Source of the DNA: an uncultured Pelagibacteraceae bacterium
Lineage (GTDB): Bacteria > Pseudomonadota > Alphaproteobacteria > Pelagibacterales > Pelagibacteraceae
DNA: 60,289 bases
Assembly (NCBI GenBank): GCA_902624535.1
Contig: CACNYF010000002.1
Span: forward strand, 67,128 to 127,416
Reading direction: 5' to 3'
Shown piece by piece: positions 10,262 through 27,846 of the stretch; position 1 is the stretch's first letter, and the number at the start of each line of letters is the position of its first letter. Below the pieces are notes generated by a model. That model did no database searches. It saw nothing but the letters and a program-made list of their open reading frames with translations, and was not told where the DNA came from. The translations under genes were made by a program, and so were the position numbers.

Positions 10262-10304
10262 TTAACTGTTGAAAATAAACTACACAAATGTTTTATAGTT
10301 CGTC

Positions 10305-11390: not shown

Positions 11391-11429
11391 CATACAATAT
11401 ACCTAATATAATACTTACAAAATGGCCTG

Positions 11430-11458: not shown

Positions 11459-11480
11459 TAAACATATAAATTAATTTATA

Positions 11481-11492
11481 TTAAACGTTTAA
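11481..11492. promoter_or_regulatory. 12-bp palindrome with central CG upstream of the binding-protein gene (candidate operator)
   Basis: TTAAACGTTTAA is a perfect palindrome with a central CG, the layout seen in LacI-family operators. It lies downstream of the -10 element and directly before the Shine-Dalgarno site, where a bound repressor would block transcription. No LacI-type regulator is encoded in the window, so the call is speculative. Confidence 0.3.
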
Positions 11493-11494
11493 AC

Positions 11495-11499
11495 GGAGG
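11495..11499 (+). promoter_or_regulatory. strong Shine-Dalgarno site (GGAGG)
   Basis: GGAGG lies four bases before the ATG at 11504. Most genes in this window have no recognisable Shine-Dalgarno site, so this marks the binding protein as a highly translated product and fixes its start. Confidence 0.7.
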
Positions 11500-11503
11500 A
11501 TAA

Positions 11504-12622: not shown

Positions 12623-12659
12623 TATAAGTATTAAAGACTAGTATAATATAATATATATA

Positions 12660-12684
12660 GGGCGACTTTAAAGTCGCCCTTTTT
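12660..12684 (+). terminator. intrinsic terminator after the binding-protein gene
   Basis: A perfect 20-base palindrome at 12660-12679 (arms GGGCGACTTT / AAAGTCGCCC) is followed by TTTTT. It lies 37 bases after the binding-protein stop and only nine bases before the permease ATG at 12689. It should end most transcripts after the binding protein and let a fraction through to the permeases. Confidence 0.8.
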
Positions 12685-12688
12685 ATTT

Positions 12689-13951
12689 ATGAGCAGTGAA
12701 ACAAAACAAATATTAACTACCGACGGAATTCCCTTAGAGATAAGCTTAAAAAAAGCTGAGCGGAAAAATAAAATCAAAGCATTTTTACTTGTTGCTCCAT
12801 TATTACTATTTTTGATTATTACTTACATCTTTCCAATTGGGGAAATGTTTACAAGAAGTATTGATGATAAAATGATTACTAACATGCTTCCTAAAACATT
12901 TAAATCTATGGAGACCTGGGATGGCAAAGAGCTTCCACCTGAAGAAGTATTTGCCTCATTCTTATCTGACTTTAAAATTCTTGTAGATAAAAAGGAACAT
13001 GGAAAATTAGCTCAAAGACTTAATAAAGAAAAAAATGGTTTTACCACCATAACAAAAAAATTATTTAGACAAGTTAAAAGAAATAAAATTGATGAGACAC
13101 AAAGTATTAAAGAACAAATAATGAAAGTTCATAAACGATGGAGAAATGTAGAATACTGGCAAGCAATTAAAAGAACTGCGCCCCCTTATACTTCAGCTAA
13201 ATATTTAAAAGCTATGGACATGTATTTGAATGAAGATAACAAAATTACTCAAGTTAGCGAAGATAGAAGAATACACAGAATTTTGTGGTTAAGAACTGTA
13301 GAGGTTGCTTTTTTTGTTACCGTATTTTGTTTCTTAATGGGTTATCCAATAGCTCATTTGCTAGCAACTCTTCCTATGAAATACAGCAATTTATTAATGA
13401 TATGTGTCCTCCTTCCTTTTTGGACATCATTGTTGGTTAGAACAGCTAGCTGGATGATATTACTTCAACAGCAAGGTGTGGTTAATGATTTCTTTGTAAT
13501 GATAGGACTAGTTGCAGACGATAATAGGCCTGAAATGATGTATAATAAAGTTGGAACTTATGTTGCAATGACACAAATATTATTGCCATTTATGGTTTTA
13601 CCTCTTTATAGCGTTATGAAAACAATTTCTCCAAGTTTGATGAGAGCAGGAAAATCTCTTGGTGGAACACCATTTGTGGCTTTTTGGAAAGTATATTTTC
13701 CATTAACAATACCTGGTATTGGGGCAGGTTGTCTTTTAGTTTTTATTCTTGCAATTGGATATTACATTACACCTGCTTTAGTTGGAGGAGCATCAGGAAC
13801 ATTAATTAGTAATCAAATAGCATACCATATGAAGTCTACTTTAGATTGGAGTTTTGCTTCTGCAATGGGACTTATGTTACTTAGTGGTGTTTTGGTTATT
13901 TATTGGATTTATAACAAACTAGTTGGGGTTGATAATATTAAATTAGGATAG
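12689..13951 (+). CDS. potB: ABC transporter permease (PotB-like) with a long N-terminal insert
   Basis: The 420-aa integral membrane protein has a first helix near residues 30-52, then a hydrophilic loop of about 150 residues (roughly 55-205, rich in Lys/Glu). The usual permease core with its EAA-type loop (RAGKSLGGTPFVAFWKVYFP) follows. Canonical PotB is near 280-300 aa, so the large loop between the first two helices is the oddity. It follows a terminator hairpin with no Shine-Dalgarno site, implying read-through expression. With the PotC-like protein starting two bases later it forms the translocation channel. Confidence 0.85.
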   Translation: MSSETKQILTTDGIPLEISLKKAERKNKIKAFLLVAPLLLFLIITYIFPIGEMFTRSIDDKMITNMLPKTFKSMETWDGKELPPEEVFASFLSDFKILVDKKEHGKLAQRLNKEKNGFTTITKKLFRQVKRNKIDETQSIKEQIMKVHKRWRNVEYWQAIKRTAPPYTSAKYLKAMDMYLNEDNKITQVSEDRRIHRILWLRTVEVAFFVTVFCFLMGYPIAHLLATLPMKYSNLLMICVLLPFWTSLLVRTASWMILLQQQGVVNDFFVMIGLVADDNRPEMMYNKVGTYVAMTQILLPFMVLPLYSVMKTISPSLMRAGKSLGGTPFVAFWKVYFPLTIPGIGAGCLLVFILAIGYYITPALVGGASGTLISNQIAYHMKSTLDWSFASAMGLMLLSGVLVIYWIYNKLVGVDNIKLG

Positions 13952-13952
13952 A

Positions 13953-14807
13953 ATGGCATTACCAAAATATACAGAAACTAGATATAGAATTTGGCATTAT
14001 TTTTATATTGCCATATGTACCTTTGTATTTATTTTCTTAATAGCACCTTTGTTTGTAATATTTCCATTATCATTTAATGCAGAGGAGTTTCTTGTTTTTT
14101 CAGAAGGAATGAAAAACTTAGACCCAGATGCTTTTTCTTTAAGATGGTACAAAGATATGGTTTACGGAACAAAAAATCCATGGGGACTTGCTGCAAAGAA
14201 TAGTTTTATTATTGCTATATTTGCAACTCTAGGCTCAGTAATTTTAGGAACAGTTGCTGCATTAGGATTAAGTAGCAGACATATGCCTTTTAAAGGAATA
14301 ATAATGGCAACTTTAATTTCACCAATGATAGTTCCACTTATTATATCTGGTGTTGCAATATTCTTCTTTATGGCAAAGGCAGGTTTAGCGGCAACACATA
14401 CAGGAATAGTTTTAGCTCATATTATTTTAGGGACACCATTTGTTGTAATCACTGTTACCGCAACATTATCAGGCTTTGATCATAGTGTAACAAGAGCAGC
14501 AGCTAGTTTGGGTAGTAATCCAGTAAATACATTTATGAAAATAACACTTCCTTTAATTTTACCTGGCGTAATTTCAGGAGGTTTATTTGCTTTTGTAACG
14601 TCTTTTGATGAAGTTGTAGTAGTGCTATTTTTGGCAGGTCTTGAAAATACAACTATCCCAATTCAAATGTGGACAGGTTTAAGAGAACAATTAAGTCCCA
14701 CCATTCTAGCAGTTGCTACGTGTTTAATCATTTTATCAACTTTAATATTAATTAGCGCCGAATTGTTAAGAAGAAGATCTGAAAGATTAAGAGGAATTAA
14801 CAGATAA
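13953..14807 (+). CDS. potC: ABC transporter permease (PotC-like)
   Basis: The 284-aa permease has six predicted membrane helices and the cytoplasmic EAA-type loop RAAASLGSNPVNTFMKITLP that docks on the ATPase. Length and topology match PotC. It starts two bases after the PotB-like stop and completes the four-component importer. The gene meets the thiolase gene on the other strand with no gap. Confidence 0.87.
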   Translation: MALPKYTETRYRIWHYFYIAICTFVFIFLIAPLFVIFPLSFNAEEFLVFSEGMKNLDPDAFSLRWYKDMVYGTKNPWGLAAKNSFIIAIFATLGSVILGTVAALGLSSRHMPFKGIIMATLISPMIVPLIISGVAIFFFMAKAGLAATHTGIVLAHIILGTPFVVITVTATLSGFDHSVTRAAASLGSNPVNTFMKITLPLILPGVISGGLFAFVTSFDEVVVVLFLAGLENTTIPIQMWTGLREQLSPTILAVATCLIILSTLILISAELLRRRSERLRGINR

Positions 14808-15932
14808 TTAATTTACAGACTCAATTATTGTCGCAATACCCATACCTAAACCTATACATTGAGTAGATAAAGCATATTTTTTATTTTCACGTCTAAGTAA
14901 GTCTGCAGCTTTACCAGTTATTCTTGCTCCTGTTGCTCCAAGAGGATGCCCAAGTGCTAATGCTCCACCGTCTAAATTAGCTTTCTTTTGATCGATACCA
15001 AGATCTTTTAAACATGCTATTGATTGAGATGCGAAAGCCTCATTAATTTCGACAATATCAATATCATCAATTGATAAATTTGCTCTCTCCAATACTTTTT
15101 TTGTTGCACCTATAGGTCCAAGTCCCATTACATCAGGTTCACATCCTTTAACCCCAGTTGCAACAATTCTACCCAAAATTTCTAATCCATTTTCTTTCGC
15201 ATAGCTTTCTTCACATATCAATGTTGCTGCTGCTCCATCAGTAAGAGGTGATGACGTTGCTGCAGTAACAGTTCCTTCTTGATCAAATGCAAGTTTTAGT
15301 CCATCTAAAGTTTCTTGATTACTTTTTGGACGTATATTTCCATCTTTTGTGCAGCCAGCAATTTCAACTATCTCATTTTTAAATTTACCTTTAACCTCAG
15401 CCTCATTAGCTTTTTGATGACTTTGAATTGCAAACTCTTGTTGCTCAGTTCTTGAAATTTTATATCTCTTAGCTACATTTTCAGCAGTTATACCCATTGA
15501 AAAATAAACATTTGGATTTTCTTTATCTGTGTAAGGATAAGGTATCGGTTCAAAGCCAGTTGTCACTCTAGTCATACTTTCAACACCTCCACATACAAAA
15601 ACTTTACCTGCGCCCATTGCTATTTTACCCGCTGCAACATGAATAGCTTCCATAGATGAGCCACACCATCTATCAACAGTCATTCCAGACGTATGTATTT
15701 CCATCCCAGATAAAAATGTTGTTAGTTTCCCAATATTAAAACTCTGCTCCCCAACCTGGAAAGCACACCCAACAACAATATCTTCAATATCAGCAGGGTT
15801 TATTTTTGTTTTAGATACAAGATTTTTAACAACATCGGCAAACATATTTACAGGCTTAACATTAATTAATTCACCTTTTCTTGCCATTGTAAAAGGTGAT
15901 CTTGAATATCCTGCTATAACCGCTCTTTTCAT
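14808..15932 (-). CDS. thiolase family acyl-CoA acetyltransferase
   Basis: The 374-aa protein has the thiolase nucleophile Cys90 in DRWCGSSMEA, the EINEAFASQ segment, GHPLGATGAR with the catalytic His, and the second Cys in STQCIGLGMG. Family members cleave 3-oxoacyl-CoA or condense two acyl-CoAs. It is slightly shorter than a typical 390-aa acetyl-CoA acetyltransferase, and WCGSS replaces the common CASG. It is the last gene of a minus-strand run with demethylase, ThDP-lyase and hydroxyacid-oxidase genes, so it may release acetyl-CoA at the end of that pathway. A general beta-oxidation role with the FadB-like protein at 27904 is the alternative. Confidence 0.87.
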   Translation of the reverse strand: MKRAVIAGYSRSPFTMARKGELINVKPVNMFADVVKNLVSKTKINPADIEDIVVGCAFQVGEQSFNIGKLTTFLSGMEIHTSGMTVDRWCGSSMEAIHVAAGKIAMGAGKVFVCGGVESMTRVTTGFEPIPYPYTDKENPNVYFSMGITAENVAKRYKISRTEQQEFAIQSHQKANEAEVKGKFKNEIVEIAGCTKDGNIRPKSNQETLDGLKLAFDQEGTVTAATSSPLTDGAAATLICEESYAKENGLEILGRIVATGVKGCEPDVMGLGPIGATKKVLERANLSIDDIDIVEINEAFASQSIACLKDLGIDQKKANLDGGALALGHPLGATGARITGKAADLLRRENKKYALSTQCIGLGMGIATIIESVN

Positions 15933-15955
15933 ATAAGATTTATACCTACTAATTA

Positions 15956-17119
15956 TTATTTTGAAAATGGTAAAGAGGACACAATCCCTTTTCTTAATTT
16001 ATTATCTGGAGTATGAACTAAAACTTCTGACCCTATTTTGCAAAATTCATTTAAAATCATGGATAAACCAATATTTTTTTTGAATTTTGGAGAATAAATA
16101 CCTGAGGTAATTTTACCAATTAATTTCTTATCTTTTGAATATAGTGGAAAAGGAACTGAACATGGCGGACAGTCTATACCATCAAATAATACTCCTTTTA
16201 ATTTTTGTTTTACACCTTGTTTTTTAATTTTCTCTAAAACATTTTTTCCAATGAAGTCATGATCACTTTCATTATTACAATATTTTTCTAAGTTGCATTC
16301 AATTGGATTATTTTCTTTTGTAAAATCATTTCCATATGACATTAATCCTGCTTCTATTCTATCAATTAAATTTGGGCAACCCGGAGCAATATTAAATTCT
16401 TTTCCTGCTTTCCATATTATATCCCAGATTTTTTCACCCATTTCATTTTTATCGAAGTAATCTTCAAAACATTTAAAATAAATTTCAAACCCATCTTGTT
16501 TACTATACCCTGATCTAGCAATAATTTGTTTAGTCCCTAAAAAATCAAATACCTTAAAATTAAAAAATTTTATTTTTCTTATATCTTCTCCAAATATAGA
16601 TGCCATTAAGTCCTCAGCTTTAGGACCCTGAACTGCAAGAGGATAAACATCAGGCTCTATTATGTTTACATTAAGACCTAAACCAACAGCGATACCTTTT
16701 GCCCAAAGCAATACATCTGAGTCTGCTATAGAAATCCAAAACATATCATCATCTAATTTTAACAATACTGGATCATTTATCATTCCAGCATTTTCGTCTA
16801 TCATAGGTATATAAAAACATTTTCCAGCTTCCATATTATGTAGTGATCTTGGCGTCATTTTCTGAACAAGAAAACTTGCATCTGGACCTGATATCTGTAC
16901 CTGTCTTTGACATGATACATCCCACAACTGAACATATTCATTTAAATGCCAATAATCATCCTCAACAGATTTCTGAAATCTTTTTGGTAAAAGCATGTGA
17001 TTTACAACTGTAAAATCGGTTACGCCACACTCTTCAACTCTCTTTGTGTAAGGAGTTCTTCTTATTCTCCTCGACATATTTAGTTTTGTGCTTATTTTAC
17101 TTTGTATTAACGAAGCCAT
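15956..17119 (-). CDS. DmdA-like (GcvT-fold) tetrahydrofolate-dependent demethylase
   Basis: The 387-aa protein has the aminomethyltransferase (GcvT) fold. Segments closely resemble what I remember of SAR11 DMSP demethylase DmdA: an MASLI start, SRRIRRTPYTKRVEECGV, NHMLLP, INDPVLLKL with the catalytic Asp, ADSDVLLWA, PLAVQGPKA and RIEAGLMSYGNDF. DmdA transfers a methyl group from DMSP to tetrahydrofolate. Differences, for example RSGYSKQ where I recall RSGWSKQ, and an acidic insert in the last third, suggest a paralogue with another methylated substrate. The transthyretin-like gene lies three bases upstream and a ThDP lyase follows that, so it belongs to a multi-step pathway. Confidence 0.78.
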   Translation of the reverse strand: MASLIQSKISTKLNMSRRIRRTPYTKRVEECGVTDFTVVNHMLLPKRFQKSVEDDYWHLNEYVQLWDVSCQRQVQISGPDASFLVQKMTPRSLHNMEAGKCFYIPMIDENAGMINDPVLLKLDDDMFWISIADSDVLLWAKGIAVGLGLNVNIIEPDVYPLAVQGPKAEDLMASIFGEDIRKIKFFNFKVFDFLGTKQIIARSGYSKQDGFEIYFKCFEDYFDKNEMGEKIWDIIWKAGKEFNIAPGCPNLIDRIEAGLMSYGNDFTKENNPIECNLEKYCNNESDHDFIGKNVLEKIKKQGVKQKLKGVLFDGIDCPPCSVPFPLYSKDKKLIGKITSGIYSPKFKKNIGLSMILNEFCKIGSEVLVHTPDNKLRKGIVSSLPFSK

Positions 17120-17122
17120 ATA

Positions 17123-17458
17123 TTATTTAGACCACCACACAGTATAGCTGTTAGGAGAAATTATTATTGGCAAATGATAATTTTTTTTATTATCGACCAT
17201 TTTAAATTTTATGACTATTTCACCCACATTTTTTTTCTTTTTAAAGTAACTTTTAATATCACAAATCATTTCATAATCGCATTTACAATCTTTTTTGCTA
17301 AGATTGAAATACTGATTAATTCTACCATTTCCATCAGTCTTTGTATTCAAAAAAAGCTTTTTTAATTTTGAAGATTGTATTTGATAAATTTTTACTTTGA
17401 CATTACTTGCATGAGTTCCATCAGAACCATTCAATAAATGTGAGCTAAATTTTGCCAT
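17123..17458 (-). CDS. transthyretin-like (5-hydroxyisourate hydrolase family) protein lacking the C-terminal YRGS
   Basis: The 111-aa protein matches the length and layout of 5-hydroxyisourate hydrolase. It has an N-terminal SSHLLN with His7, a TDGNGR segment, and a C-terminal strand YHLPIIISPNSYTVWWSK. The presumed catalytic His/Arg/His are retained. The family hallmark YRGS tetrapeptide is replaced by WWSK, so urate breakdown is unlikely to be its role. It sits between a DmdA-like demethylase and a ThDP enzyme with one- to three-base spacing. I infer hydrolysis of a cyclic amide or similar in the same pathway. Confidence 0.7.
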   Translation of the reverse strand: MAKFSSHLLNGSDGTHASNVKVKIYQIQSSKLKKLFLNTKTDGNGRINQYFNLSKKDCKCDYEMICDIKSYFKKKKNVGEIVIKFKMVDNKKNYHLPIIISPNSYTVWWSK

Positions 17459-17459
17459 T

Positions 17460-19199
17460 TTACTCTATTGAAGATTTCTCTCTCTTGCTCGCTACAGCAG
17501 CAACAATTGGACTTAATACAGGTTTAGCTTTTACATTTACACAAGCAGTTTTACCGCTTGCAATAGCTCTTTTTAGCGCTGGACCCAATTCTTCTCTTTT
17601 TGTAACCAATTCACCATGACCTCCAAAACCTTCAAATATACTGTGGAAAGGTATATCTCTAAAGTCTGTTGCCACTCTTTTTCCACTATTAAATAACCTC
17701 TCTTGTTGTTGTCCAATTGATGCTAAGCCACCATTATTGTCAATTACAACAACAATTGGTTTCTTTTCAAAAAATGCAGTTTCTATAGACATACCTCCTG
17801 ATAAAAAGGCACCATCTCCACTAATTAAAATTACATTCGATTTAGGGTTATTATTTTTTGCAGATAATGCAAATGATACTCCAACACCAAGCATACTAAA
17901 TGTGCCTGGATGTAAAATTCCACCCAATTTTTTTCCTTGGGCTCCTGCTAAATTTATTGCGATTTCAGACCAGAAATGAGTATTTCCTCCATCAATTACA
18001 AGCCAATCTTTCTCATCCATTACGTCTTGTACATCTAATGCTAATTGCAGGGGATGAATTTTTCCACCATTTTTTTTTGTTTGATCGGCCTCAATCTTTA
18101 ATTCATTTAAGGATTTATTTACCCAATCTTTTTTTTTATTTTTATTTTCGTTAAACCAATTACTTCCCAAGTTCCATTTATTGTTTTTCTTTAAATTACA
18201 TAGTGTATCCAGAAATACTCCTGGATCACATAAAAGATTATGATCAGCTGCTCTATTAAACTCAATTTCTTCATGGGAACCGTTAATACAAACTAAAGTT
18301 GTTGTTTTTGGAATGAAAGGAGGGTTACCAAAATTCATTTGGTTATCTAACCTTGCACCAATCATTAAAACTAAGTCTGAGTTATGTAATGCAAATTCTG
18401 AAGGTGGATATTGGTGAATATCAGCTAAACCCATATATGCATTTGCCTCTTCTCCTAAAAGTTTTTGATGGTACGGCACATTAAAAACTGGAATATTTAA
18501 ACTTTGACCCGCTGTCTCTAAATTCTTTTCTGAGCTTGACCACCAAACACCGTGTCCTCCAATTATGACAGGTTTTTTTGCATTACATGCTAACTCAAGT
18601 ATTTTTGATAGTGCATTTGGGTCTGGCCATGCCTTAGAAACTGGCTTTGCTTTATGTGAAAATGGTCTTTCCTCAAGTCCAACATTTTCTTCAAATGAAG
18701 AAAACATTATATCAACAGGTAAACTTAAATGAACTGCACCAGGATATCCATTCGTTGCAATTCTATAAGCTTTATCAACAAATTCTCTAATTCTTGTCCC
18801 ATCTGTAATACTAGCACTATATTTTGTAAGGGGAGCAGCTATTGAAACATCATCAATTTCTTTAAATCCACCTGATCCTTGTCTTTTTAAACTACTTGAT
18901 CCAGTTATATAAATTATTGGAGTTCTTTCTCCCCATGCTTCCATCATTGATGGTACCGCATTTGCAAAACCCTCTGGCCCAACTAAACATACAGATGGTT
19001 TTCTTGTAATTCTTGTGTGTCCATCTGCCAAGTGTCCTGCTATTTGTTCATGAGGACAATTAACTACATCAATTTGACATTCCATAAAACCTTCAATTGC
19101 AGGATTACAAAATCCACCAGATAGAGTAAAAACCTTATTAATGCCTTTATCTTTTAATGCTCTTGCAATTAATGCTCCACCTCTTATTTTTTTTTCCAT
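17460..19199 (-). CDS. thiamine-diphosphate-dependent enzyme (acetolactate synthase / 2-hydroxyacyl-CoA lyase-like)
   Basis: The 579-aa protein has the three ThDP-enzyme domains. The N-terminal Pyr domain carries the activating Glu51 in PHEQIAGHLADGHTR. The central domain contains GGHGVWW. The C-terminal PP domain has the GDGAFLSGG...DNN metal/diphosphate motif. The family includes acetolactate synthase, oxalyl-CoA decarboxylase and 2-hydroxyacyl-CoA lyase. There is no small regulatory subunit gene nearby and neighbours are catabolic, which argues against branched-chain amino acid synthesis. Cleavage or decarboxylation of a 2-oxo or 2-hydroxy acid made by the adjacent FMN oxidase is the simplest inference. 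Spacing to both neighbours is one base. Confidence 0.83.
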   Translation of the reverse strand: MEKKIRGGALIARALKDKGINKVFTLSGGFCNPAIEGFMECQIDVVNCPHEQIAGHLADGHTRITRKPSVCLVGPEGFANAVPSMMEAWGERTPIIYITGSSSLKRQGSGGFKEIDDVSIAAPLTKYSASITDGTRIREFVDKAYRIATNGYPGAVHLSLPVDIMFSSFEENVGLEERPFSHKAKPVSKAWPDPNALSKILELACNAKKPVIIGGHGVWWSSSEKNLETAGQSLNIPVFNVPYHQKLLGEEANAYMGLADIHQYPPSEFALHNSDLVLMIGARLDNQMNFGNPPFIPKTTTLVCINGSHEEIEFNRAADHNLLCDPGVFLDTLCNLKKNNKWNLGSNWFNENKNKKKDWVNKSLNELKIEADQTKKNGGKIHPLQLALDVQDVMDEKDWLVIDGGNTHFWSEIAINLAGAQGKKLGGILHPGTFSMLGVGVSFALSAKNNNPKSNVILISGDGAFLSGGMSIETAFFEKKPIVVVIDNNGGLASIGQQQERLFNSGKRVATDFRDIPFHSIFEGFGGHGELVTKREELGPALKRAIASGKTACVNVKAKPVLSPIVAAVASKREKSSIE

Positions 19200-19200
19200 A

Positions 19201-20361
19201 TTAGTAAGTTGTATTCATAAATAGTTTCTGTTCGATTATATCAGAAGAAACTTCATTAATATCATTTAATCCAACCAAACCTAGTGCTGTGCTAGTTTCT
19301 TCTTTAATTATATCTACAATTCTTCTTAATCCACTAGCTCCATCAGCTCCCATTGCATACATTACGGGTCTTCCAATCATTGAAAAGTCTGCTCCTAAAG
19401 CTAATGATCTCACAATATCACTACCACTTCTTATTCCACTATCAAATATAATTGGAAAATTATTTCCTACTGCCTCTCTAATAAAAGGTAAAATATTTAT
19501 TGCTGCTGAGGCACTATCTAATTGTCTGCCTCCGTGATTTGAAACTTGAATAGCATCAGCGCCCATTTCTTTAATTTTAACTGCATCGTCCGATGACATT
19601 ATACCTTTGACAATCAATTTGCCTTTCCATTTATTTCTTACTCTTTTTAGAGTTTCCCAATCCGTTCTTCCTCTACTTTCTTTTCTTTTAAAAATACTTT
19701 TTCCACTTTTTGAAGTTTCGTAATTCATTGGTTTGGGTATTCCACTAAGCAATGTAGATATTGACCAAACAGGATGGGTTGCAAAATCAAAAAATTGTTT
19801 AGGTCCAATTTTAAATGGATATGAAAATCCATTTTTATCATCTCTAGTTCTCCTTGATAAAACTGGAACATCAACAGTAAGTATAGCAACCTCATAGCCA
19901 GTTTTTTCTGCTCTATCAAGCAATTCCATGACAAAAGCTTCATCTTGGAAAATATAAAGTTGAAGCCATGAATGACCCTCTGAAAGCTCATACATTTTTT
20001 CCAAAGTAGTTGTGGAAGCCATTGATACACAAGTTGGTATATTATTTCTTGCACTCTCTTTTGCCAGCATAGAGTCTGCGCCTGGCCATGAAAGATTTGT
20101 CATACCCATGGGAGCAAATCCAAAAGGATAGTCATAATTAATTCCAAGAATATTTTTTTTTAGTTTTCTTTCTTCTACATTCCTTAAAACTCTTGGCTCA
20201 AGTCGTATTTGGTCTAAAGCAAAACTATTAATTTCAGACAACTTTTCATCTCCTGATGCACCATCAATAAAATCGTAAACTAGCTTCGGTAATCTTTTCT
20301 TCGATAGTTTTTTTGCGTCTTCAAGACTAAAAATCTTATTACTGGCTTTAATATTATCCAT
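19201..20361 (-). CDS. FMN-dependent 2-hydroxyacid oxidase/dehydrogenase (LldD / glycolate oxidase family)
   Basis: The 386-aa protein is a full-length FMN TIM barrel. It has the catalytic VSNHGGRQLDS motif (His and Arg binding the substrate carboxylate), the LIVKGIMSSDDA segment, and IIFDSGIRSGSDIVRSLALGA for phosphate binding. The family oxidises L-lactate, glycolate, mandelate or longer 2-hydroxyacids to 2-oxoacids. There is no lactate permease nearby. Its product could feed the ThDP enzyme encoded one base downstream. It overlaps the S51 peptidase gene by eight bases, consistent with one operon. Confidence 0.87.
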   Translation of the reverse strand: MDNIKASNKIFSLEDAKKLSKKRLPKLVYDFIDGASGDEKLSEINSFALDQIRLEPRVLRNVEERKLKKNILGINYDYPFGFAPMGMTNLSWPGADSMLAKESARNNIPTCVSMASTTTLEKMYELSEGHSWLQLYIFQDEAFVMELLDRAEKTGYEVAILTVDVPVLSRRTRDDKNGFSYPFKIGPKQFFDFATHPVWSISTLLSGIPKPMNYETSKSGKSIFKRKESRGRTDWETLKRVRNKWKGKLIVKGIMSSDDAVKIKEMGADAIQVSNHGGRQLDSASAAINILPFIREAVGNNFPIIFDSGIRSGSDIVRSLALGADFSMIGRPVMYAMGADGASGLRRIVDIIKEETSTALGLVGLNDINEVSSDIIEQKLFMNTTY

Positions 20362-21049
20362 TTAATTTCTTTATATATGCTTTTAAACTAATCTTATCAT
20401 CTTTGGTCACATAATAAGCATCATGATTAATTCTTGAAGAATAAACCTCAGAAGGAACTCCGTCAATAAAAAGCACAGCTACGCCATCATCAATAGCTAT
20501 TCCATCTGGCAAATTTCCATCTTTAATTTCAGAGATAAATTGTAGAAGTCGATTATTATTTGAAGAATGTGGTGTGCAGCTTCCATCTAAAAAACTTATT
20601 CCTTTTAATGGACTTAACTCTTTATTAACAGAGTCAGATAATATCCAATCAAACCAACAGACAGCTCCTGCACTTATCCCACTCAGAATAATTCCTTTTT
20701 CGTATGCATCTTTAAATACGTTAATAAGATTATGTCTTTTCCAAATATTAATCATATCAGAGGTATTACCTCCACCTACATAAATTATATCTTTGTTTAA
20801 CAGCCATTCATGAAAACCTTCCACACTTGTGCAAAGATTAAAATGAGATAATTTAAATTTTTGCGACTTAAATCTTTTATAAAAAAGATCTATCTTTTCT
20901 CTATTATCGTTGCTGGCAGTTGGCAAAAAGCCCAAACTAATACTTGATTTATTAACTTGATTTACAACATATTCATCTAATGCTTCATCAGAGTTATGTG
21001 TAAATCCACCTCCACCAATTGCTATTATTATTTTTTTATTCCTGACCAC
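20354..21049 (-). CDS. S51 family peptidase (peptidase E / cyanophycinase-like)
   Basis: The 231-aa protein has an N-terminal IIIAIGGGG, the GGGNTSDM segment and the nucleophilic Ser in GISAGAVCWF, followed by CTPHSSNN with the catalytic His. This is the peptidase E layout. Peptidase E removes N-terminal Asp from dipeptides; relatives hydrolyse beta-aspartyl or cyanophycin bonds. In this setting it may release an amino-acid-like core from an imported conjugate. The divergent peptide-family ABC importer supports that but does not prove it. It overlaps both the FMN oxidase gene and the second demethylase gene. Confidence 0.8.
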   Translation of the reverse strand: MVRNKKIIIAIGGGGFTHNSDEALDEYVVNQVNKSSISLGFLPTASNDNREKIDLFYKRFKSQKFKLSHFNLCTSVEGFHEWLLNKDIIYVGGGNTSDMINIWKRHNLINVFKDAYEKGIILSGISAGAVCWFDWILSDSVNKELSPLKGISFLDGSCTPHSSNNNRLLQFISEIKDGNLPDGIAIDDGVAVLFIDGVPSEVYSSRINHDAYYVTKDDKISLKAYIKKLNG

Positions 21050-22251
21050 GGAGAAGGACCTTTTGGAATATCGATTTTTAAACCTCTTACAATTTCATTT
21101 TTAAAGTCATACATTGGTAAAGTACATATCTCACCTTTATGAATTGTATTATCGTTACAATTAACATCTACTATTAACCCAGGCTTATATTCTGTAGAAT
21201 TCATTAAAACTATTCCAACTCCACACTCTTGAAACGGTGACCAAGTACTTGAAGTAATTTTACCAATTATTTCATTGTTGAATTTAATATATGTACCTTT
21301 GAGTGCTGTACCACCCTCTACTCTTATGCCCCAACATCTTTTCTCTTTATCTACCGATTGTAAAGCTGACTTTCCTATAAAGTAGCTTTTATTTAAATCA
21401 ACATATTTACCCAAACCAACATCATAAGGATTTGTTTTGTGATTAAAGTCTTGCCCAGCTGATAATAATCCAGACTCTATTCTCTTACATCTAAAACCAG
21501 GCGTACCTGTGAGTATCATTCCCATTTTTTTTCCTTCTTCAAGAATGTAATCTCCAATTTTTTCAGTATTATTAATCTTTGTAAAATATATTTCCCAACC
21601 TAACTCGTTACTAAATCCTGATCTGCTTATAATTAATTTTTCCTGTAAAATTTCTACTTCTCTCCAATCAAAATATTTCCAATTTTCTGGATATGTTTCC
21701 TTTGTTAATTTTTTTAAAAGATCCATAGATTTAGGACCTTGAATTTGACTTACCCAAACATCTGGATCAGATATTTTAACCTTAAGATTATCTGAGTGCG
21801 CCTTGTACCATGAAAAAAGATCTCCATCAGCTTGAGCAAACCAAAATTTGTTTTCTTCTAGTCTTAACAAAACCCCATCTGTTATCATTCCTCCATCGCT
21901 GTAACATGCAAATTGGTAGGAGCATCTTCCTACTTTAATTTTTGATATATCTCGCGTAAATATTTTTTGTAAAAGTTTTTCTGCATCTGGACCAGAAATT
22001 TCATAAGGATGTTCACCCGTATGACGAAATATTAATTCTTGTCTTACTTTCCAATACATTTCATCTGCAGTTGCATTTGATAGAACTTCAGGATTTAATC
22101 TTCCTGCATAAAATGAATATTCTGGATCAAAGGGAAGTTCTTGGTAAGCCAAGGGATGTATGCCAACAGTTCTTGCAAGTTCAACTACTTTGCTTTTATC
22201 TACCTTTAAAGGTTTTACTGAAAATCTGACTTTGTTTAGATCGTTTTGCAT
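21028..22251 (-). CDS. second DmdA/GcvT-like tetrahydrofolate-dependent methyltransferase
   Basis: The 407-aa protein has the GcvT fold. It has an ISGPDAEKLLQKIFTRDIS segment, GGMITDGVLLRLEENKFW carrying the conserved Asp, VSQIQGPKS, SRSGFSNELGWEIYF and a glycine-rich RIESGLLSAGQDF. It has an N-terminal extension of about 60 residues (IHPLAYQELPFDPEYSFY) absent from the smaller relative at 15956. It leads the minus-strand operon and is divergent from the importer at 22393. Two demethylases in one operon suggest a substrate with two methyl groups or two successive methylated intermediates. The 22-base overlap with the S51 gene couples them. Confidence 0.78.
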   Translation of the reverse strand: MQNDLNKVRFSVKPLKVDKSKVVELARTVGIHPLAYQELPFDPEYSFYAGRLNPEVLSNATADEMYWKVRQELIFRHTGEHPYEISGPDAEKLLQKIFTRDISKIKVGRCSYQFACYSDGGMITDGVLLRLEENKFWFAQADGDLFSWYKAHSDNLKVKISDPDVWVSQIQGPKSMDLLKKLTKETYPENWKYFDWREVEILQEKLIISRSGFSNELGWEIYFTKINNTEKIGDYILEEGKKMGMILTGTPGFRCKRIESGLLSAGQDFNHKTNPYDVGLGKYVDLNKSYFIGKSALQSVDKEKRCWGIRVEGGTALKGTYIKFNNEIIGKITSSTWSPFQECGVGIVLMNSTEYKPGLIVDVNCNDNTIHKGEICTLPMYDFKNEIVRGLKIDIPKGPSPWSGIKK

Positions 22252-22392
22252 TTATAAATATAAGAAAAATTGTATATTAATTAAAATATCTATTCAATCA
22301 GTAGATGTATCGCTCTAATTTGCCGGTTGTTATCCACATCTGGAATTGTTATCTTTTTATATATTAAAATAATTAAAGAAAAAGAGGGACTT
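22252..22392. promoter_or_regulatory. divergent intergenic region between the demethylase operon and the peptide-type importer
   Basis: This 141-base AT-rich gap must carry promoters for both directions. On the plus strand TTGTTA (22346-22351) and AATAAT (22368-22373) are 16 bases apart, a weak promoter candidate. AGAGGGA precedes the importer ATG at 22393 as a Shine-Dalgarno site. AGATGT (22303-22308) and ACATCT (22336-22341) could pair as a 6-bp stem. I find no known riboswitch pattern. Confidence 0.4.
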
Positions 22393-23880
22393 ATGAAATA
22401 CATGTTAAAAGTTTTTTCAGCGACATTAGTGTCACTGATATTATCTTTTTCTATTGCCAATGCATCAAGTGGTGTCTTTAAATTGTCACATGATCTTGGA
22501 TTTGGAAAAGATACCAACTTAGACGCAATTACTAAGGGACGTTTGTTTCAGGTAGTTATTATGACACAAAACCGTCTAGTTAGAAAAAATCTTGACGGTG
22601 TAACATCGCCTGAACTTGCAACCGAATGGTCGGCAAATGCTGATGCAACTGAGTGGACATTCAAATTGAGAAAAGGGATATATTTCCATGATGGATCAGC
22701 CTTTGATGCGCCAGATGTAAAATATTCACTTGAGAGAGTAAAAGATCCTGATATTGGATCTCCAGCCAAGAAAAGTATGAGTTCAGTTACTGATATTGAA
22801 ATAGTTGATGCACATACAGTTAAAATGAAATTAAATACTTCTTTTGCTGATTTTCCATTATTACTTACAGACTACAGATTGAGAATGATACCTGAGGGAT
22901 CTGGGGATACAATTGGTCAAACTGGAATAGGTACTGGTCCTTTTATGGTCGATAAATTTGATCCAGAAGGAACTACAGTTTTAAAAGCAAACCCAGAGTA
23001 TTGGGAAGGTGCTCCAGGAGTAGCAGAAGTACATGTTATCGCAATACCAGACGGTGAAGCTAGAGTTCAAGCTCTTCTTACAGGACAGATCGATATGAAT
23101 AGATATGTACCATTTAGTCAAAAAAGAATTTTTGATAACAATCCTAAGTTTAATGTTTCAGTTGTGCCTACAGGAAATTGGAGAGGAATGGTAATGAGAA
23201 CAGATACCGCTCCATTTGATAATCCAAAAGTAAGAAAAGCAGTTAGACTTGCAGTTGATAGACAAGAACTTGTAGATCTTGTTATGGGAGGAGCAGCAAC
23301 AGTTTCATGTGATACTCCAGTTGCACCTTCTGATCAATACAGATTGAAAATGGATTGTCCTCAAAATGTTAGCAAAGCTAAAAACTTACTAAGAGAAGCT
23401 GGATATCCTAATGGAATATCTATGACAATTCATGTATCTACAAAAGAACCAACTTGGCCAACAATTGCAGAAGTTATGCAACAACAGCTAGCTAAAGCAA
23501 ACATCAAAGCAGATATTAAAATGACTCCTTCTAAGAGTTATTGGAAAGAGACTTGGATGAAAAAAGCTGTTGCAATGACACGTTGGAATGAAAGACCTGC
23601 AGATAGTATTTTGCATGAGGCTTATCATAGTGGTGCTAAATGGAATGAGTCTTTCTATAAAAGTTCTTCGTTTGATAAGAATTTAGCTGATGCAAGAGGA
23701 CAGCTAGATTTTAATAAAAGAAAAGCTGCTTATCAAAATGCCCAAAAAACTTTATGGGAAGAGACTGGTACAATGATACCTTATCATGTATCCAAATTAG
23801 TGATAACGTCATCAAGAGTTAAAGATTTAGATGATGTTGAAGTTTTTTCCATTCAATGGCATAAACTAAAAGTAGATTAA
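22393..23880 (+). CDS. ABC transporter substrate-binding protein, family 5 (DppA/OppA-like)
   Basis: The start is placed at the ATG at 22393. It has an AGAGGGA Shine-Dalgarno site a few bases upstream and a proper signal peptide (KVFSATLVSLILSFSIANA). The frame continues upstream without these features and that extension is rejected. The 495-aa precursor has the family 5 hallmarks WTFKLRKGIYFHDGSAFDA and the IGTGPFMV region. The family binds peptides, but also opines, glutathione, nickel and sugars. It is divergent from the demethylase/lyase/oxidase operon and heads a complete importer operon, so its ligand may be that pathway's substrate. Confidence 0.85.
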   Translation: MKYMLKVFSATLVSLILSFSIANASSGVFKLSHDLGFGKDTNLDAITKGRLFQVVIMTQNRLVRKNLDGVTSPELATEWSANADATEWTFKLRKGIYFHDGSAFDAPDVKYSLERVKDPDIGSPAKKSMSSVTDIEIVDAHTVKMKLNTSFADFPLLLTDYRLRMIPEGSGDTIGQTGIGTGPFMVDKFDPEGTTVLKANPEYWEGAPGVAEVHVIAIPDGEARVQALLTGQIDMNRYVPFSQKRIFDNNPKFNVSVVPTGNWRGMVMRTDTAPFDNPKVRKAVRLAVDRQELVDLVMGGAATVSCDTPVAPSDQYRLKMDCPQNVSKAKNLLREAGYPNGISMTIHVSTKEPTWPTIAEVMQQQLAKANIKADIKMTPSKSYWKETWMKKAVAMTRWNERPADSILHEAYHSGAKWNESFYKSSSFDKNLADARGQLDFNKRKAAYQNAQKTLWEETGTMIPYHVSKLVITSSRVKDLDDVEVFSIQWHKLKVD

Positions 23881-23891
23881 ATATAGTTATT

Positions 23892-23921
23892 TTTTACAGG
23901 CCTTTAATTAGGCCTGTAAAA
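23892..23921 (+). terminator. 11-bp perfect hairpin between binding-protein and permease genes
   Basis: Arms TTTTACAGGCC and GGCCTGTAAAA pair perfectly around an eight-base loop, 11 bases after the binding-protein stop. No T-run follows on the plus strand (AACCGC), so it may act as an mRNA 3'-end stabiliser or pause rather than a classical terminator. Its position mirrors the terminator at 12660 in the other importer. Confidence 0.6.
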
Positions 23922-23973
23922 CCGCAATCAAATTTTGTTATTATAAAAATAAATAAGATTTATAATCTTAAAT

Positions 23974-24930
23974 ATGATTTTTTTAATTTTTAAAAGAATT
24001 TTACTAGGTTTAATTACTTTATTTATAGTATCCTTAATAACTTTTGCTGGAGTTGAAGTTTTGCCAGGTGATGCCTGCACTACATACTTAGAGAGAGAAG
24101 CATATGGTGCAGCTTTAGAAGCTTGTTATCAAAGATTGGGATTAAATGTTCCAGCTTATGAAAGATATTTGTCTTGGGCTTATGGGGTAATTCAAGGAGA
24201 CTTTGGATATTCTTTAAGTGGAGAGATGAAAATAAATGATGTTTTGGGTCCGAGAGTAAAAAATTCAATGGTTTTAGCCTCAGCCTCAATTTTAATTGGC
24301 ATACCAATTGCACTTTTGCTTGGGATTATAACTGCACTTTGGAGAGATAAATTTCCAGATATTGTTATTTCAACAATAACAATATTTTCGATGACAATCC
24401 CAGAATTTATTAGTGCAACTTTATTGATATTAATAGTTGCCATTTGGTTAGAATGGCTTCCTGGCATAGTTATAGTGCCAACAGGAGCTTCTATCTCTGA
24501 ATTACTTCCAAATATCATTTTACCAGTTATTGCAATATCAATGATTATGACCGCACATATGGCAAGAATGGTTAGATCAAGTGTAATTCAAGTTATGTCA
24601 AGCGACTACGTTCAAATGGCAATATTAAAAGGTGTTCCTTATTGGAAAATGGTTTTTAAACATGTCTTGCCAAATGCTCTATTGCCCGCAATTAATGTTG
24701 TAGCGTTAACTATCGCGTGGTTGCTCGGAGGTGTTGTTGTAACTGAAGTTGTGTTTAATTATCCTGGACTAGGTAGATTGGTTATTGAGTCAATTTCAAA
24801 TAGAGATTTGCCTGTTGTTCAAGCATTAGCAATTATACTTGCCTCAATTTATGTTGGCATAAATTTGTTGGCAGATTTAATGACATTGATGTTAAACCCA
24901 AGACTAAAGTCTCTTCAAATTAAAAAATAA
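23974..24930 (+). CDS. ABC transporter permease (DppB/OppB-like)
   Basis: The 318-aa permease has an N-terminal helix followed by VEVLPGDACTTYL, then six membrane segments in total and the EAA-type loop (MAILKGVPYWKMVFKHVLP) for coupling to the ATPase. Length and layout are those of DppB/OppB. It lies after a strong hairpin and is followed two bases later by the DppC-like gene. Confidence 0.87.
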   Translation: MIFLIFKRILLGLITLFIVSLITFAGVEVLPGDACTTYLEREAYGAALEACYQRLGLNVPAYERYLSWAYGVIQGDFGYSLSGEMKINDVLGPRVKNSMVLASASILIGIPIALLLGIITALWRDKFPDIVISTITIFSMTIPEFISATLLILIVAIWLEWLPGIVIVPTGASISELLPNIILPVIAISMIMTAHMARMVRSSVIQVMSSDYVQMAILKGVPYWKMVFKHVLPNALLPAINVVALTIAWLLGGVVVTEVVFNYPGLGRLVIESISNRDLPVVQALAIILASIYVGINLLADLMTLMLNPRLKSLQIKK

Positions 24931-24932
24931 TT

Positions 24933-25817
24933 ATGGAACTACAAGTAGAAAAACCAAAAAGTAATCTTTTTAAAATTTATGAGATTATTTCAACAATGGC
25001 TTCAAGGCCATCAGGTTTAATAGGACTGACTATTTTGTTATTTCATGTAGTTTTAGCTGTCACAAGTCCATTATATGCACCTCATGATTTTAAAGCTATT
25101 GATCCATCGCTAATGTTGCTGCCACCATCATCTGAATATTGGTTTGGAACAGACAGTTTAGGTCGTGACGTTTTTACGAGAACTATATTAGGTGGAAGAA
25201 CAGCATTAACTGTTACATTTTTTGGATCGATAATTGCATTGTTGTGGGGTGGTGCTCTAGGAATATTTTGTGGACTAGTTGGAGGAAGAATTGATGATGT
25301 TGTCATGAGGATCATAGACGCATTTTTATCGATACCCTGGATTCTTGCAATGTTGTTGATTGTATCTTTGCTTGGTACTTCAACAATTGTTTTAATTCCT
25401 GCATTAGGATTTTTTTATGGCAAAGGTATTGTTAGAGTTGCAAGAGCAGCAACTCATGATGTAATTGCAAAGGATTTTATTGTATCCGCAAGAGCTAGAG
25501 GACATGGAAATTTATCTATAATTTGGAATGAAATTCTTCCAAATGTAAGAGATGCAATTATGGTTGAAGGGGCAATGAGATGGTCCTGGATGTTACTTGG
25601 TTTTAGCTCGTTATCTTTTTTAGGTTTTGGAGTGAGTCCACCTACACCAGATTGGGGTTTGATGATATCAAATGCTAGGGGATTAATGTCATTTGCTTAT
25701 TGGGCTGTTCTTGCGCCGATAGTAGGTTTGAGTTCACTTATTATAGGAATTAATTTAACAGCTGATGCATTTGCAAAAGCATTAGGTATCGATAGATCAA
25801 CCAAAGCACCGGTTTAA
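24933..25817 (+). CDS. ABC transporter permease (DppC/OppC-like)
   Basis: The 294-aa permease has the DppC hallmarks: an N-terminal cytoplasmic segment, one helix, then WFGTDSLGRDVFTRTILGGR, and the coupling loop VSARARGHGNLSIIWNEILP. It pairs with the DppB-like protein. Gaps to both neighbours are one or two bases, so the importer genes are translationally coupled. Confidence 0.88.
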   Translation: MELQVEKPKSNLFKIYEIISTMASRPSGLIGLTILLFHVVLAVTSPLYAPHDFKAIDPSLMLLPPSSEYWFGTDSLGRDVFTRTILGGRTALTVTFFGSIIALLWGGALGIFCGLVGGRIDDVVMRIIDAFLSIPWILAMLLIVSLLGTSTIVLIPALGFFYGKGIVRVARAATHDVIAKDFIVSARARGHGNLSIIWNEILPNVRDAIMVEGAMRWSWMLLGFSSLSFLGFGVSPPTPDWGLMISNARGLMSFAYWAVLAPIVGLSSLIIGINLTADAFAKALGIDRSTKAPV

Positions 25818-25818
25818 A

Positions 25819-27846
25819 ATGGAAAATGCGGTACAACAAATAAACAATTTATCAATAGGCTTCACGAGTAAAAAAGGTGAACAAATCTCAATTTTAAAAA
25901 ATATAACTACAAATATAAAAAAGGGAGAAACCGTTGGTATTGTGGGCGAGTCAGGTTCAGGGAAAAGCACTTTAGCATTGGCTATGATGGGTTATGTAAA
26001 ACAGGGATTATATACTATTTCTGGTGAATGTTTGTTTCATTCTAACGATCTTTTAAGAATGAAAGATAAAGATTTGGAAGATATTAGAGGTAGAAAAATT
26101 GCAATGATACCACAAAATGCTGGTCAATCTTTAACACCAAATCTAAAAATAGGTTATCAAATTGATGAAGCTTTAAAACTCCATACTGATTTAAAAATAC
26201 AAGATAGAAATAAAAAAACTTCAGAGTTACTTAACAAGGTAAGATTGCCATCACCTGAAATTATGGCCCAAAGATACCCTCACGAGTTATCTGGGGGTCA
26301 ACAACAAAGAGTTGCTGTTGCTATGGCATTAGCTGGAAACCCCGAATTACTGTTATTAGATGAGCCGACTACTGGATTGGATGTAACCACACAGGCTCAT
26401 GTATTAGAACTATTAAATTTTATTGCTAAAGATACTGGTACATCAATGGTTTATGTAAGTCATGATTTAGGTGCCATTGCTCAAGTAAGTGATAGAGTAA
26501 TTGTGATGTATTCTGGACAAATCGTTCTAGATGGTCCAGTAAGAAGAATACTAAAAAATCCAATTCATCCTTATACATCTGGATTATTGAAATCTATTCC
26601 AAAATTAACTCTGCCAGGATTACCGAAGTCTATGTCTGGAAGTCAACCACAACCAGGAACAATCACAAAAGGGTGTAGTTTTTATGATAGATGTGAACTC
26701 GCTGAAATAAATTGTAGTAATAATTCGCCAGAATTAGAATATGTAAAAAATTTAAATACTAGCGTTAGATGTTTTAAGCACAAAGAGCTTCACGAAAAAA
26801 TTGATAAAGATGAAAATCTAGTAACATCTATTGAAAATACTATCTTGGATAAAGAAATGCTCGGTTTATCAAAAGTTTCAATAAGTTACGCTAAAAAAAA
26901 ATTTATTGATCAATTATTAAATAAAGAAAGCGATGACAATCCAACCGTTAAGGATATAAATTTAAATATTAGTAAAGGCGAAACATTAGCCTTGGTTGGG
27001 GAATCGGGAAGTGGAAAATCTACAATTTTAAAGTCAATCGCAGGACTTTTAAAAGCTAAAGAGGGAAATATTAAATATGAAAATAATAAAATCTTACCAA
27101 ATGAGCTTAAATTAAGAGATCCAAATTCCTTAAGAGCTATACAGCTTATATTTCAAAACCCTGATGAGTCACTAAATCCAAATCATACTGTTGAGCAAAT
27201 TGTTTCTCAACCATTAAAACTATATTTTGGATTGCAAGGAGAAAAATTAAAAGATGAAATTATAAAAGTTTTAAAAAAAGTTCGACTTGGTGAATTCTAT
27301 CTTACAAGATATCCTCGTCAATTATCTGGCGGAGAAAAACAAAGAGTGGCAGTTGCAAGAGCTTTTGCTGCAAAACCTGATGTAATTCTTTGTGATGAGG
27401 TCACATCGGCTTTAGATGTATCTGTTCAAGCCGCAGTTTTGAATTTATTACAAGAATTAAAAAAAGATTTTGGCACAACCTACATATTCGTATCACACGA
27501 TCTTGCAGTTGTAAGAGCAATTAGTGACAGAGTAGCTGTTTTATACCAAGGTAGATTGTGTGAAATTGGTCCATCAAAAAATGTTTATAACTTTCCATCA
27601 CATCCCTATACAGAAGTGTTACTAGGTGCAGTTTTAGAGCCCGATCCAGATATTAAACCAAAATTAGTAGCAGAAGATATTGTGGAAGAAAAACCGCCTG
27701 AAAAAGGGTGTTCTTTTCAGGGAAGATGTCCTAGAAAAGTTGGAGAAATCTGTAATTCAGAAGTTCCACCTTGGCAAATTGGTGAAAACGGAAATGCTAT
27801 AAGATGTCATATTAATGTTGATGAATTGAGAAATTTACAGAAATAA
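25819..27846 (+). CDS. fused DppD-DppF-type ABC ATPase (two nucleotide-binding domains)
   Basis: The 675-aa protein contains two complete ABC ATPase domains. The first has Walker A GESGSGKST near residues 43-51, LSGGQQQRVAVAMAL and LLLLDEPTTGLD. The second has GESGSGKST near residue 394, LSGGEKQRVAVARAF and VILCDEVTSALD. Each is followed by the Cys-containing C-terminal extension of oligopeptide ATPases (KGCSFYDRC and KGCSFQGRC). Fusion of the DppD and DppF equivalents is common in alphaproteobacteria (YejF/GsiA-like). The second Walker B has Cys-Asp-Glu-Val in place of Asp-Glu-Pro, a mild deviation. Confidence 0.9.
   Translation: MENAVQQINNLSIGFTSKKGEQISILKNITTNIKKGETVGIVGESGSGKSTLALAMMGYVKQGLYTISGECLFHSNDLLRMKDKDLEDIRGRKIAMIPQNAGQSLTPNLKIGYQIDEALKLHTDLKIQDRNKKTSELLNKVRLPSPEIMAQRYPHELSGGQQQRVAVAMALAGNPELLLLDEPTTGLDVTTQAHVLELLNFIAKDTGTSMVYVSHDLGAIAQVSDRVIVMYSGQIVLDGPVRRILKNPIHPYTSGLLKSIPKLTLPGLPKSMSGSQPQPGTITKGCSFYDRCELAEINCSNNSPELEYVKNLNTSVRCFKHKELHEKIDKDENLVTSIENTILDKEMLGLSKVSISYAKKKFIDQLLNKESDDNPTVKDINLNISKGETLALVGESGSGKSTILKSIAGLLKAKEGNIKYENNKILPNELKLRDPNSLRAIQLIFQNPDESLNPNHTVEQIVSQPLKLYFGLQGEKLKDEIIKVLKKVRLGEFYLTRYPRQLSGGEKQRVAVARAFAAKPDVILCDEVTSALDVSVQAAVLNLLQELKKDFGTTYIFVSHDLAVVRAISDRVAVLYQGRLCEIGPSKNVYNFPSHPYTEVLLGAVLEPDPDIKPKLVAEDIVEEKPPEKGCSFQGRCPRKVGEICNSEVPPWQIGENGNAIRCHINVDELRNLQK

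Follow-up and report, generated by a model that had tools for sequence, protein, structure and literature searches.

Several described systems resemble parts of the locus reported here. In the mandelate pathway, mandelate dehydrogenase and benzoylformate decarboxylase carry a 2-hydroxy acid to a 2-oxo acid and on to an aldehyde. In purine breakdown, hydroxyisourate hydrolase (HIUase), whose hallmarks are a YRGS C-terminus and a His/Arg/His active site, is followed by OHCU decarboxylase. Peptide importers of the Dpp/Gsi type combine an SBP_bac_5 binding protein with two permeases and a fused ATPase, and DmdA of SAR11 (3tfh) and Roseobacter is the demethylase that converts dimethylsulfoniopropionate (DMSP) to MMPA. 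Here we analysed a window of 60,289 nucleotides (the whole stretch of DNA studied; contig CACNYF010000002.1, positions 67,128 to 127,416) from an uncultured Pelagibacteraceae bacterium of SAR11, in which positions 14808-27846 hold an eleven-gene block of about 13 kb. The block is one catabolic unit linked to an importer, which SAR11 genomes have or lack as a whole, and we see close to an even chance that it serves the catabolism of a single imported, methylated, amide-containing compound. Like the mandelate pathway, it places a dehydrogenase dependent on flavin mononucleotide (FMN) and of the mandelate/lactate type before an enzyme dependent on thiamine diphosphate (ThDP). However, this ThDP protein is nearest to 2-hydroxyacyl-CoA lyase/oxalyl-CoA decarboxylase, and the transthyretin (TTR)-like protein, the S51 hydrolase and the demethylases of the block have no counterpart in that pathway. 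Its importer has the same parts as the Dpp/Gsi systems, although the binding protein does not reach the cut-off of any of the 12 NCBIfam families matched; the PDB sequences nearest to it include YliB/GsiB and AgaA.

Gene content was established from open reading frames (ORFs) and from Pfam and NCBIfam profile scans of all block proteins except the two permeases. The seven enzyme genes occupy the minus strand from 14808 to 22251. In order of coordinate they encode a thiolase of the acetyl-CoA acyltransferase family (14808-15932; PF00108/PF02803; TIGR01930 406 bits, cut-off 240.55), a DmdA-family folate-dependent demethylase (15956-17119; NF009133 528 bits, cut-off 410; 381 bits to 3tfh), a TTR/HIUase-fold protein of a distinct subfamily (17123-17458; PF00576 68.5 bits), a ThDP-dependent enzyme of the decarboxylase/lyase/carboligase superfamily (17460-19199; PF02775/PF02776/PF00205), an FMN-dependent 2-hydroxyacid dehydrogenase of the mandelate/L-lactate dehydrogenase type (19201-20361; PF01070 395 bits; PRK11197 269.8, cut-off 376), a peptidase S51-family hydrolase with a GTG start and a GxSAGA nucleophile motif (20354-21049; PF03575 116 bits) and a GcvT-family aminomethyltransferase-like protein that is not DmdA (21028-22251; PF01571/PF08669). 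Divergent from these, on the plus strand (22393-27846), lie dppABC(DF): a DppA-type solute-binding protein (22393-23880; PF00496 291 bits), whose ATG at 22393 sits within a longer TTG ORF starting at 22327; DppB-type (23974-24930) and DppC-type (24933-25817) permeases, named by position, similarity and collinearity in relatives; and a fused DppD-DppF ATPase of 675 aa (25819-27846) with two ABC_tran and two oligo_HPY stretches. The full set of a dipeptide-type ABC importer is present (binding protein, two permeases, two ATPase domains), so that the divergence of the enzyme genes from a complete DppABC(DF)-type importer, as originally predicted, is confirmed. ORF coordinates give gaps of 23, 3, 1 and 1 bases between the enzyme genes, then overlaps of 8 and 22; the predicted number of seven packed genes and the 23-base gap hold, whereas the 22-base overlap exceeds the 'few bases' that had been claimed. 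The block does not stand out in base composition, its GC content being 0.31-0.35 and that of its surroundings 0.26-0.34, and no Rfam element reached the gathering cut-off within 6000-36000. The source genome comprises 991,906 bases and is 71% complete.

The original prediction had named conservation across SAR11 genomes as a check, and the genes proved to be collinear rather than scattered. Scanning named genomes with the ThDP protein returned 259 relatives, of which the best 80 were kept; all 80 bear Pelagibacteraceae in their titles, the closest being uncultured Pelagibacteraceae AH-324-O04 (ThDP protein 99-100% identical). Among these best 80 of 259, every locus with both fadB and potC kept all eleven genes in the same order (52/52), and every locus with dppA and potC held all seven enzymes collinearly in between (61/61). 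In three cluster-less SAR11 loci (G012, a one-contig genome; G036; G033), only 12-15 bases separate potC from the fadB that follows it, and the neighbours on either side are the same. Because potC directly adjoins fadB in these loci, SAR11 genomes carry or lack the 13 kb as a single piece, and the edges of the block in the window (last base of potC at 14807, start of fadB at 27904) coincide with the limits that the cluster had first been given.

The importer and the ThDP gene also occur together across genomes. Of 37 genomes of the SAR11 genus, 11 (the source genome among them) gave a close orthologue of the ThDP protein and 12 gave dppA, with two partial matches in each case. Nine genomes held both, two the ThDP gene only, three dppA only and 23 neither (Fisher p=8e-5). 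The equivalent counts among the 136 genomes of the order of G273, where 32 have the ThDP gene and 24 dppA, were 23, 9, 1 and 103 (p=1e-17); both p-values are overstated because related genomes are not independent. The discordant SAR11 genomes were G005, G017, G009, G010 and G031. In the four whose loci were read (G005, G017, G009 and G031) the cluster is broken by a contig end, and the dppA fragment of G010 starts at base 6 of its contig. As a control, the neighbouring ectoine-hydrolase-like M24 gene, present in 29 of the 37 genus genomes, was unlinked to the ThDP gene (p=0.23). Collinearity, the empty site and this co-occurrence bear out the view of a single unit that includes the importer. 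Taking the ThDP and dppA searches together, with matches cut by contig ends included, at least part of the 13-kb unit is present in 14 of the 37 genomes.

Orthologues of the ThDP protein (64-82% identity) were also found in some other alphaproteobacteria. A scan of 385 genomes of the class gave five besides the source genome, followed by 14 further matches at 29-32%, and a scan of 398 genomes of the phylum gave one besides the source genome. The order of G221 had orthologues in 61 of 150 genomes, all of one genus, and family f82 in 4 of 14. We take G273 to be Ca. Puniceispirillum marinum IMCC1322, which would probably make f110, f175, f176 and f177 members of SAR116; f142 may be AEGEAN-169-like, which is a guess. 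Twenty-six non-SAR11 loci were fetched and tabulated for gene content, and the ThDP and TTR genes were adjacent in all of them. Twenty contain a DmdA-like gene, and 19 of those 20 an FMN gene; in the remaining one (L161), the 4-kb contig breaks off within the ThDP gene. The same 12 of the 26 loci contain S51 and a SAR11-type dppA (45% or more), neither of which was found without the other; this supports the predicted partnership of S51 with the importer. In three f142 loci the Dpp system is more distant (28% for dppA) and S51 gave no match. In five families (f1, f24, f110, f175, f177) the same genes stay together with the order partly differing; S51, for example, lies on one side of dpp in L154 and on the other in L202.

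What accompanies the ThDP-TTR core varies. A gene of the MTTB family (PF06253, 386 bits) stands beside S51 in five of the 26 loci, a homocysteine S-methyltransferase-family gene occurs in three, and L157 continues with genes whose domains are molybdopterin and NADH-dehydrogenase-like, as in formate dehydrogenases. The GcvT-like gene was found in three loci, all of f142. Six loci hold ThDP and TTR with neither DmdA-like nor FMN genes; among them, two f82 loci whose core companions are ThDP and TTR only carry an asparaginase, three f176 loci carry PhyH dioxygenases and one carries neither. PhyH also matched, more weakly, close to the core of three loci of f175 and one of f110. L153 (f82, 11.6 kb) has the genes FMN-ThDP-TTR-DmdA and a divergent tripartite ATP-independent periplasmic (TRAP) transport system with a DctP gene, and neither S51 nor Dpp. 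In L131, a DctP/TRAP binding protein 62% identical to that of L153 lies beside S51, and dppA is also present.

Among the remaining enzymes, the ThDP protein does not reach the equivalog cut-off of any of the best 25 among its 52 NCBIfam matches (best PRK05858, 273 against 587), so that it qualifies neither as acetolactate synthase nor as 2-hydroxyacyl-CoA lyase (240 against 600). Its nearest PDB relatives score 188 bits, and it has a Lys (GGFKE) at the position of a Gln in 2-hydroxyacyl-CoA lyase 8vzc in at least 96% of 30 sequences. The FMN protein, originally predicted to be a hydroxyacid oxidase, is more likely of the mandelate/L-lactate dehydrogenase type than a soluble oxidase. It has an FMN_dh domain and an SNHGGRQ motif, and it aligns with mandelate dehydrogenase 6bfg through a loop region that we take to be the membrane-binding segment, for which reason we read it as a quinone-linked dehydrogenase. 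Nine sequences of the S51 protein all keep Ser126 and His161, and no PDB relative was found by sequence at E 0.001. The thiolase was rightly placed in the SAR11 block, whereas outside SAR11 its orthologue was not seen: no match of 300 bits or more occurred in the 26 non-SAR11 stretches. A thiolase step outside SAR11 may nonetheless exist, since L159 (f176) has a distant thiolase-family gene nearby (36% identical).

Unity, gene content, family memberships, the ThDP-TTR core and the coupling of S51 to the importer are established by these comparisons. From the enzyme families we infer the reactions, their order and the substrate as follows. DppABC(DF) would import an amide conjugate and the S51 hydrolase would break the amide to give a 2-hydroxy acid; we assign them these roles because S51 pairs with Dpp and is missing from the TRAP-bearing L153, which also lacks Dpp, as would be the case if the sole task of S51 were to deconjugate what Dpp brings in. 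The FMN dehydrogenase would then turn the 2-hydroxy acid into a 2-oxo acid, with the quinone pool as electron acceptor, and the ThDP enzyme would decarboxylate or cleave this 2-oxo acid. As the TTR gene adjoins the ThDP gene in every tabulated locus, the TTR-like enzyme is placed on the ThDP product, which it may hydrolyse by acid-base catalysis through His/Arg/His. The DmdA-family protein would transfer a methyl group to tetrahydrofolate, and the GcvT-like protein would do the same for a second methyl. SAR11 would add the thiolase, perhaps feeding a fragment into acetyl-CoA, and in other loci MTTB, homocysteine methyltransferase or dioxygenases may be alternative solutions for methyl removal. 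The occurrence of several unrelated methyl-handling families beside the core (MTTB, homocysteine S-methyltransferase, formate-dehydrogenase-like) speaks for a methylated substrate, and folate-linked demethylation as part of the system, as first proposed, is supported.

Several points weigh against this pathway, in addition to the non-independence of the genomes compared. We know of no substrate that fits all enzymes of the block, and the roles given to S51 and TTR are taken from family chemistry only. The GcvT-like and thiolase genes are not beside the core in most non-SAR11 loci. Because six of the 26 loci hold ThDP and TTR in the absence of DmdA-like and FMN genes, demethylation may be peripheral, and the argument from importer exchange is weakened because L131 has Dpp, S51 and TRAP together. 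Mycosporine-like amino acids were considered as a substrate; the literature match concerned coral symbionts.

The DmdA-family protein raises the alternative that the system belongs to DMSP breakdown. The original prediction of two DmdA-like demethylases stands for 15956-17119; the other protein is a member of the GcvT family that scores 207.7 bits on the DmdA equivalog model NF009133 and lies outside the DmdA clades of a 41-sequence tree, which included plasmid-borne Roseobacter copies. In this tree the cluster DmdA-like proteins form a clade of their own (support 100), sister to SAR11 and Roseobacter DmdA, whose grouping has weak support (78). The protein is of the same family and length as DmdA and 48-49% identical to 3tfh (44-49% for eight cluster proteins), and of the 107 positions that are invariant in 8 DmdA sequences, 71 have the same residue in every one of the 10 cluster proteins compared. 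However, L12, Y32, K52, E63, L220 and I336 (3tfh numbering), invariant in the 8 DmdA, never occur in the 10 cluster proteins, and the block lacks dmdB/C partners. Five relatives in other families score 536-634 on NF009133, all above the cut-off.

PMC7487153 calls a Trp at alignment position 171 key for DMSP, a position that we mapped to Trp197 of 3tfh. The ten aligned cluster proteins have Tyr there. A scan of 109 loci gave 97 motif matches, all 97 with Tyr, and 2 of the 12 loci with no match have it too; the other ten, as far as looked at, lack the DmdA-like gene or that part of it. Since Tyr occurs in three plasmid-borne Roseobacter DmdA as well, the residue does not discriminate, and the change from Trp to Tyr was dropped as proof against DMSP.

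The DmdA-like enzyme could be a real DMSP demethylase, or act on a near-analogue 2-hydroxy acid such as 4-dimethylsulfonio-2-hydroxybutyrate (DMSHB), with the FMN and ThDP enzymes taking a methylthio 2-hydroxy acid to the 2-oxo acid and the aldehyde. We regard this as unlikely but credible, and it may overlap with the methylated-amide pathway as a special case. The score on NF009133 agrees with it, that of the G273 copy (634) exceeding even canonical SAR11 DmdA (571), as do the sister position in the tree and the Tyr shared with Roseobacter DmdA. After the DmdA-like gene, f142 has genes for OsmC and enoyl-CoA hydratase that are 47-52% identical to those beside GcvT-like genes in two Roseobacter plasmid operons. 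On the other hand, the same genome encodes a separate canonical DmdA (C1:122564-123652), 77% identical to 3tfh, and the block has, by ORFs and Pfam, no gene for an acyl-CoA ligase or dehydrogenase. S51, TTR and the Dpp importer have, to our knowledge, no role in DMSP or DMSHB breakdown, which also counts against it. The two plasmid operons (L229 6992-11090 and L226 1471-4077) comprise GcvT-like, OsmC, enoyl-CoA hydratase and acyl-CoA synthetase genes.

This bears on annotation. In G273 the cluster copy alone passes NF009133, two other family members scoring 384 and 371, below the cut-off (search at E 1e-20), so that annotation with this model will call the cluster gene dmdA. PMC5015088 lists IMCC1322 among dmdA carriers and PMC12262181 reports dmdABC across SAR116 except one subclade, whereas PMC8547437 finds dmdA exclusively in one SAR116 subgroup (LGC2), with isolates relying on DMSP lyase. 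The cluster gene may be behind this disagreement.

Whether the methyl group is on sulfur or on nitrogen is weighed differently by two observations: the relationship to DmdA favours sulfur and the MTTB gene favours nitrogen. The substrate could be a betaine-like amide, itself a possible special case of the methylated-amide pathway, from which the first methyl would be removed by the GcvT-like protein (SAR11, f142) or by a corrinoid-linked MTTB (G273 group) and the second by the DmdA-like protein. We consider a quaternary ammonium compound improbable, though by no means far-fetched. The MTTB-family genes beside S51 in five loci speak for it, and the GcvT-like protein has Phe at the Trp197 position, as PMC7487153 reports for the dimethylglycine-dehydrogenase-like group. 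For MtgB-type methyltransferase systems, PMC12478193 places mtgC in SAR116 and reports none in Pelagibacteraceae, for which reason a folate enzyme could replace such a system in SAR11. However, MTTB is absent from 21 of the 26 non-SAR11 loci, and the DmdA-like clade is nearest to sulfonium enzymes. The GcvT-like protein is a GCV_T-domain relative of the trimethylamine N-oxide (TMAO) demethylase Tdm (181 bits), although it is far below the cut-off of 1100 and the match is confined to the C-terminal part. Elsewhere in the window, near the contig end, 58444-60072 encodes the C-terminal part of a closer TMAO demethylase relative with DUF1989 and GCV_T domains (NF053776 935 bits, cut-off 1100).

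It is very unlikely that the block is not one pathway at all, with the importer and unrelated enzymes kept together by linkage. Eight loci (L132, L151, L152, L153, L157, L158, L159, L167) do have ThDP and TTR but, at the thresholds applied, no Dpp match within the stretch read, some of them being close to contig ends, and the thiolase orthologue was seen in SAR11 only. Against this, the same genes remain together, partly reordered, in five families, and importer and ThDP gene co-occur across genomes.

The TTR-like protein resembles HIUase in its PF00576 fold and in the His/Arg/His residues (H7, R46, H95), which are kept in 30 of 30 aligned sequences. The opening of a cyclic amide, as first proposed for this protein, is conjectural. 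It differs in several respects. A second N-terminal His (H16), Pro in two reference HIUases, is invariant in the 30 sequences; all 30 lack the YRGS end and have a Trp-containing C-terminus instead; and its gene lies beside the ThDP gene in all 26 non-SAR11 loci tabulated. On TIGR02962 (cut-off 87.45) it scores 70.5 bits and three relatives 70.7, 58.9 and 59.6, against 128 and 129 for two YRGS-ended HIUases of cluster-bearing genomes. OHCU decarboxylase exceeded its cut-off in 8 of 16 cluster-bearing genomes, and a YRGS-ended HIUase lies in the 16-kb region around it in all seven genomes read; in the eighth genome, G727, the corresponding piece ends inside an HIUase-like gene. No match to OHCU decarboxylase came from the source genome, nor from six of the eight further SAR11 bearers that were searched, all of them incomplete genomes. 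A genome can thus hold both a YRGS-type HIUase and the cluster protein, and the latter is a different subfamily. That the unit degrades a methylated purine or hydantoin with TTR as its hydroxyisourate-type hydrolase is thus highly improbable, even though an Ldh_2 family gene, with relatives including ureidoglycolate dehydrogenase, follows dmdA in L131, and the HIUase of purine breakdown was rejected as an identity for the TTR-like protein. SAR11 genome G023 (L214 1483-3459) carries OHCU decarboxylase, a YRGS-type HIUase and a gene start that by eye resembles the xanthine dehydrogenase small subunit, which suggests purine breakdown in some SAR11.

Upstream of the block, 8348-14807 encodes an EutA-like protein (221 bits, cut-off 318), a DoeA-like ectoine hydrolase (449, cut-off 613) and a Pot-type importer. 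This is a widespread ectoine-like operon, independent of the cluster. A larger unit that includes it was ruled out, the M24 gene not being linked to ThDP and pot and fadB persisting in the three cluster-less loci. Not far from this operon, 5505-6437 encodes a homocysteine S-methyltransferase-family protein (PF02574, 178 bits). At the cluster edge of SAR11 genome G031 (L203 8967-9530) a BioY-family gene lies between dppDF and fadB, and in SAR11 single-cell genome AG-337-G04 (L103 3531-6580) there are no pot genes between the thiolase and M24 genes. Viral contigs scanned with S51 and with canonical DmdA yielded no relative. A plasmid scan with the ThDP protein gave 6 records at E 1e-60, with 27-30% identity, and carriage of the ThDP gene on plasmids was rejected.

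The block is a catabolic module, conserved and patchy in its distribution, whose enzymes belong to known families. No described counterpart was found in the literature searched, in agreement with the original view that no named pathway has this combination of enzymes. SAR11 genomes are tiny, yet 14 of 37 hold at least part of the unit, so its substrate must be worth a Dpp importer and seven enzymes. By sequence score, the DmdA-family gene of the cluster passes the usual standard for a DMSP-degrading gene. It is quite possible, if on balance somewhat doubtful, that an undescribed pathway of SAR11, SAR116-like and other alphaproteobacteria degrades an abundant methylated amide with a TTR-fold hydrolase and a ThDP enzyme at its core, and that the annotated dmdA in several such genomes is the enzyme of this pathway and not a DMSP demethylase. 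If the cluster enzyme is a DMSP demethylase, it removes the methyl group of DMSP as part of a pathway of quite another kind. If it is not, dmdA counts need revising, and some of the capacity for DMSP demethylation that has been inferred from marine genomes would have been misassigned.

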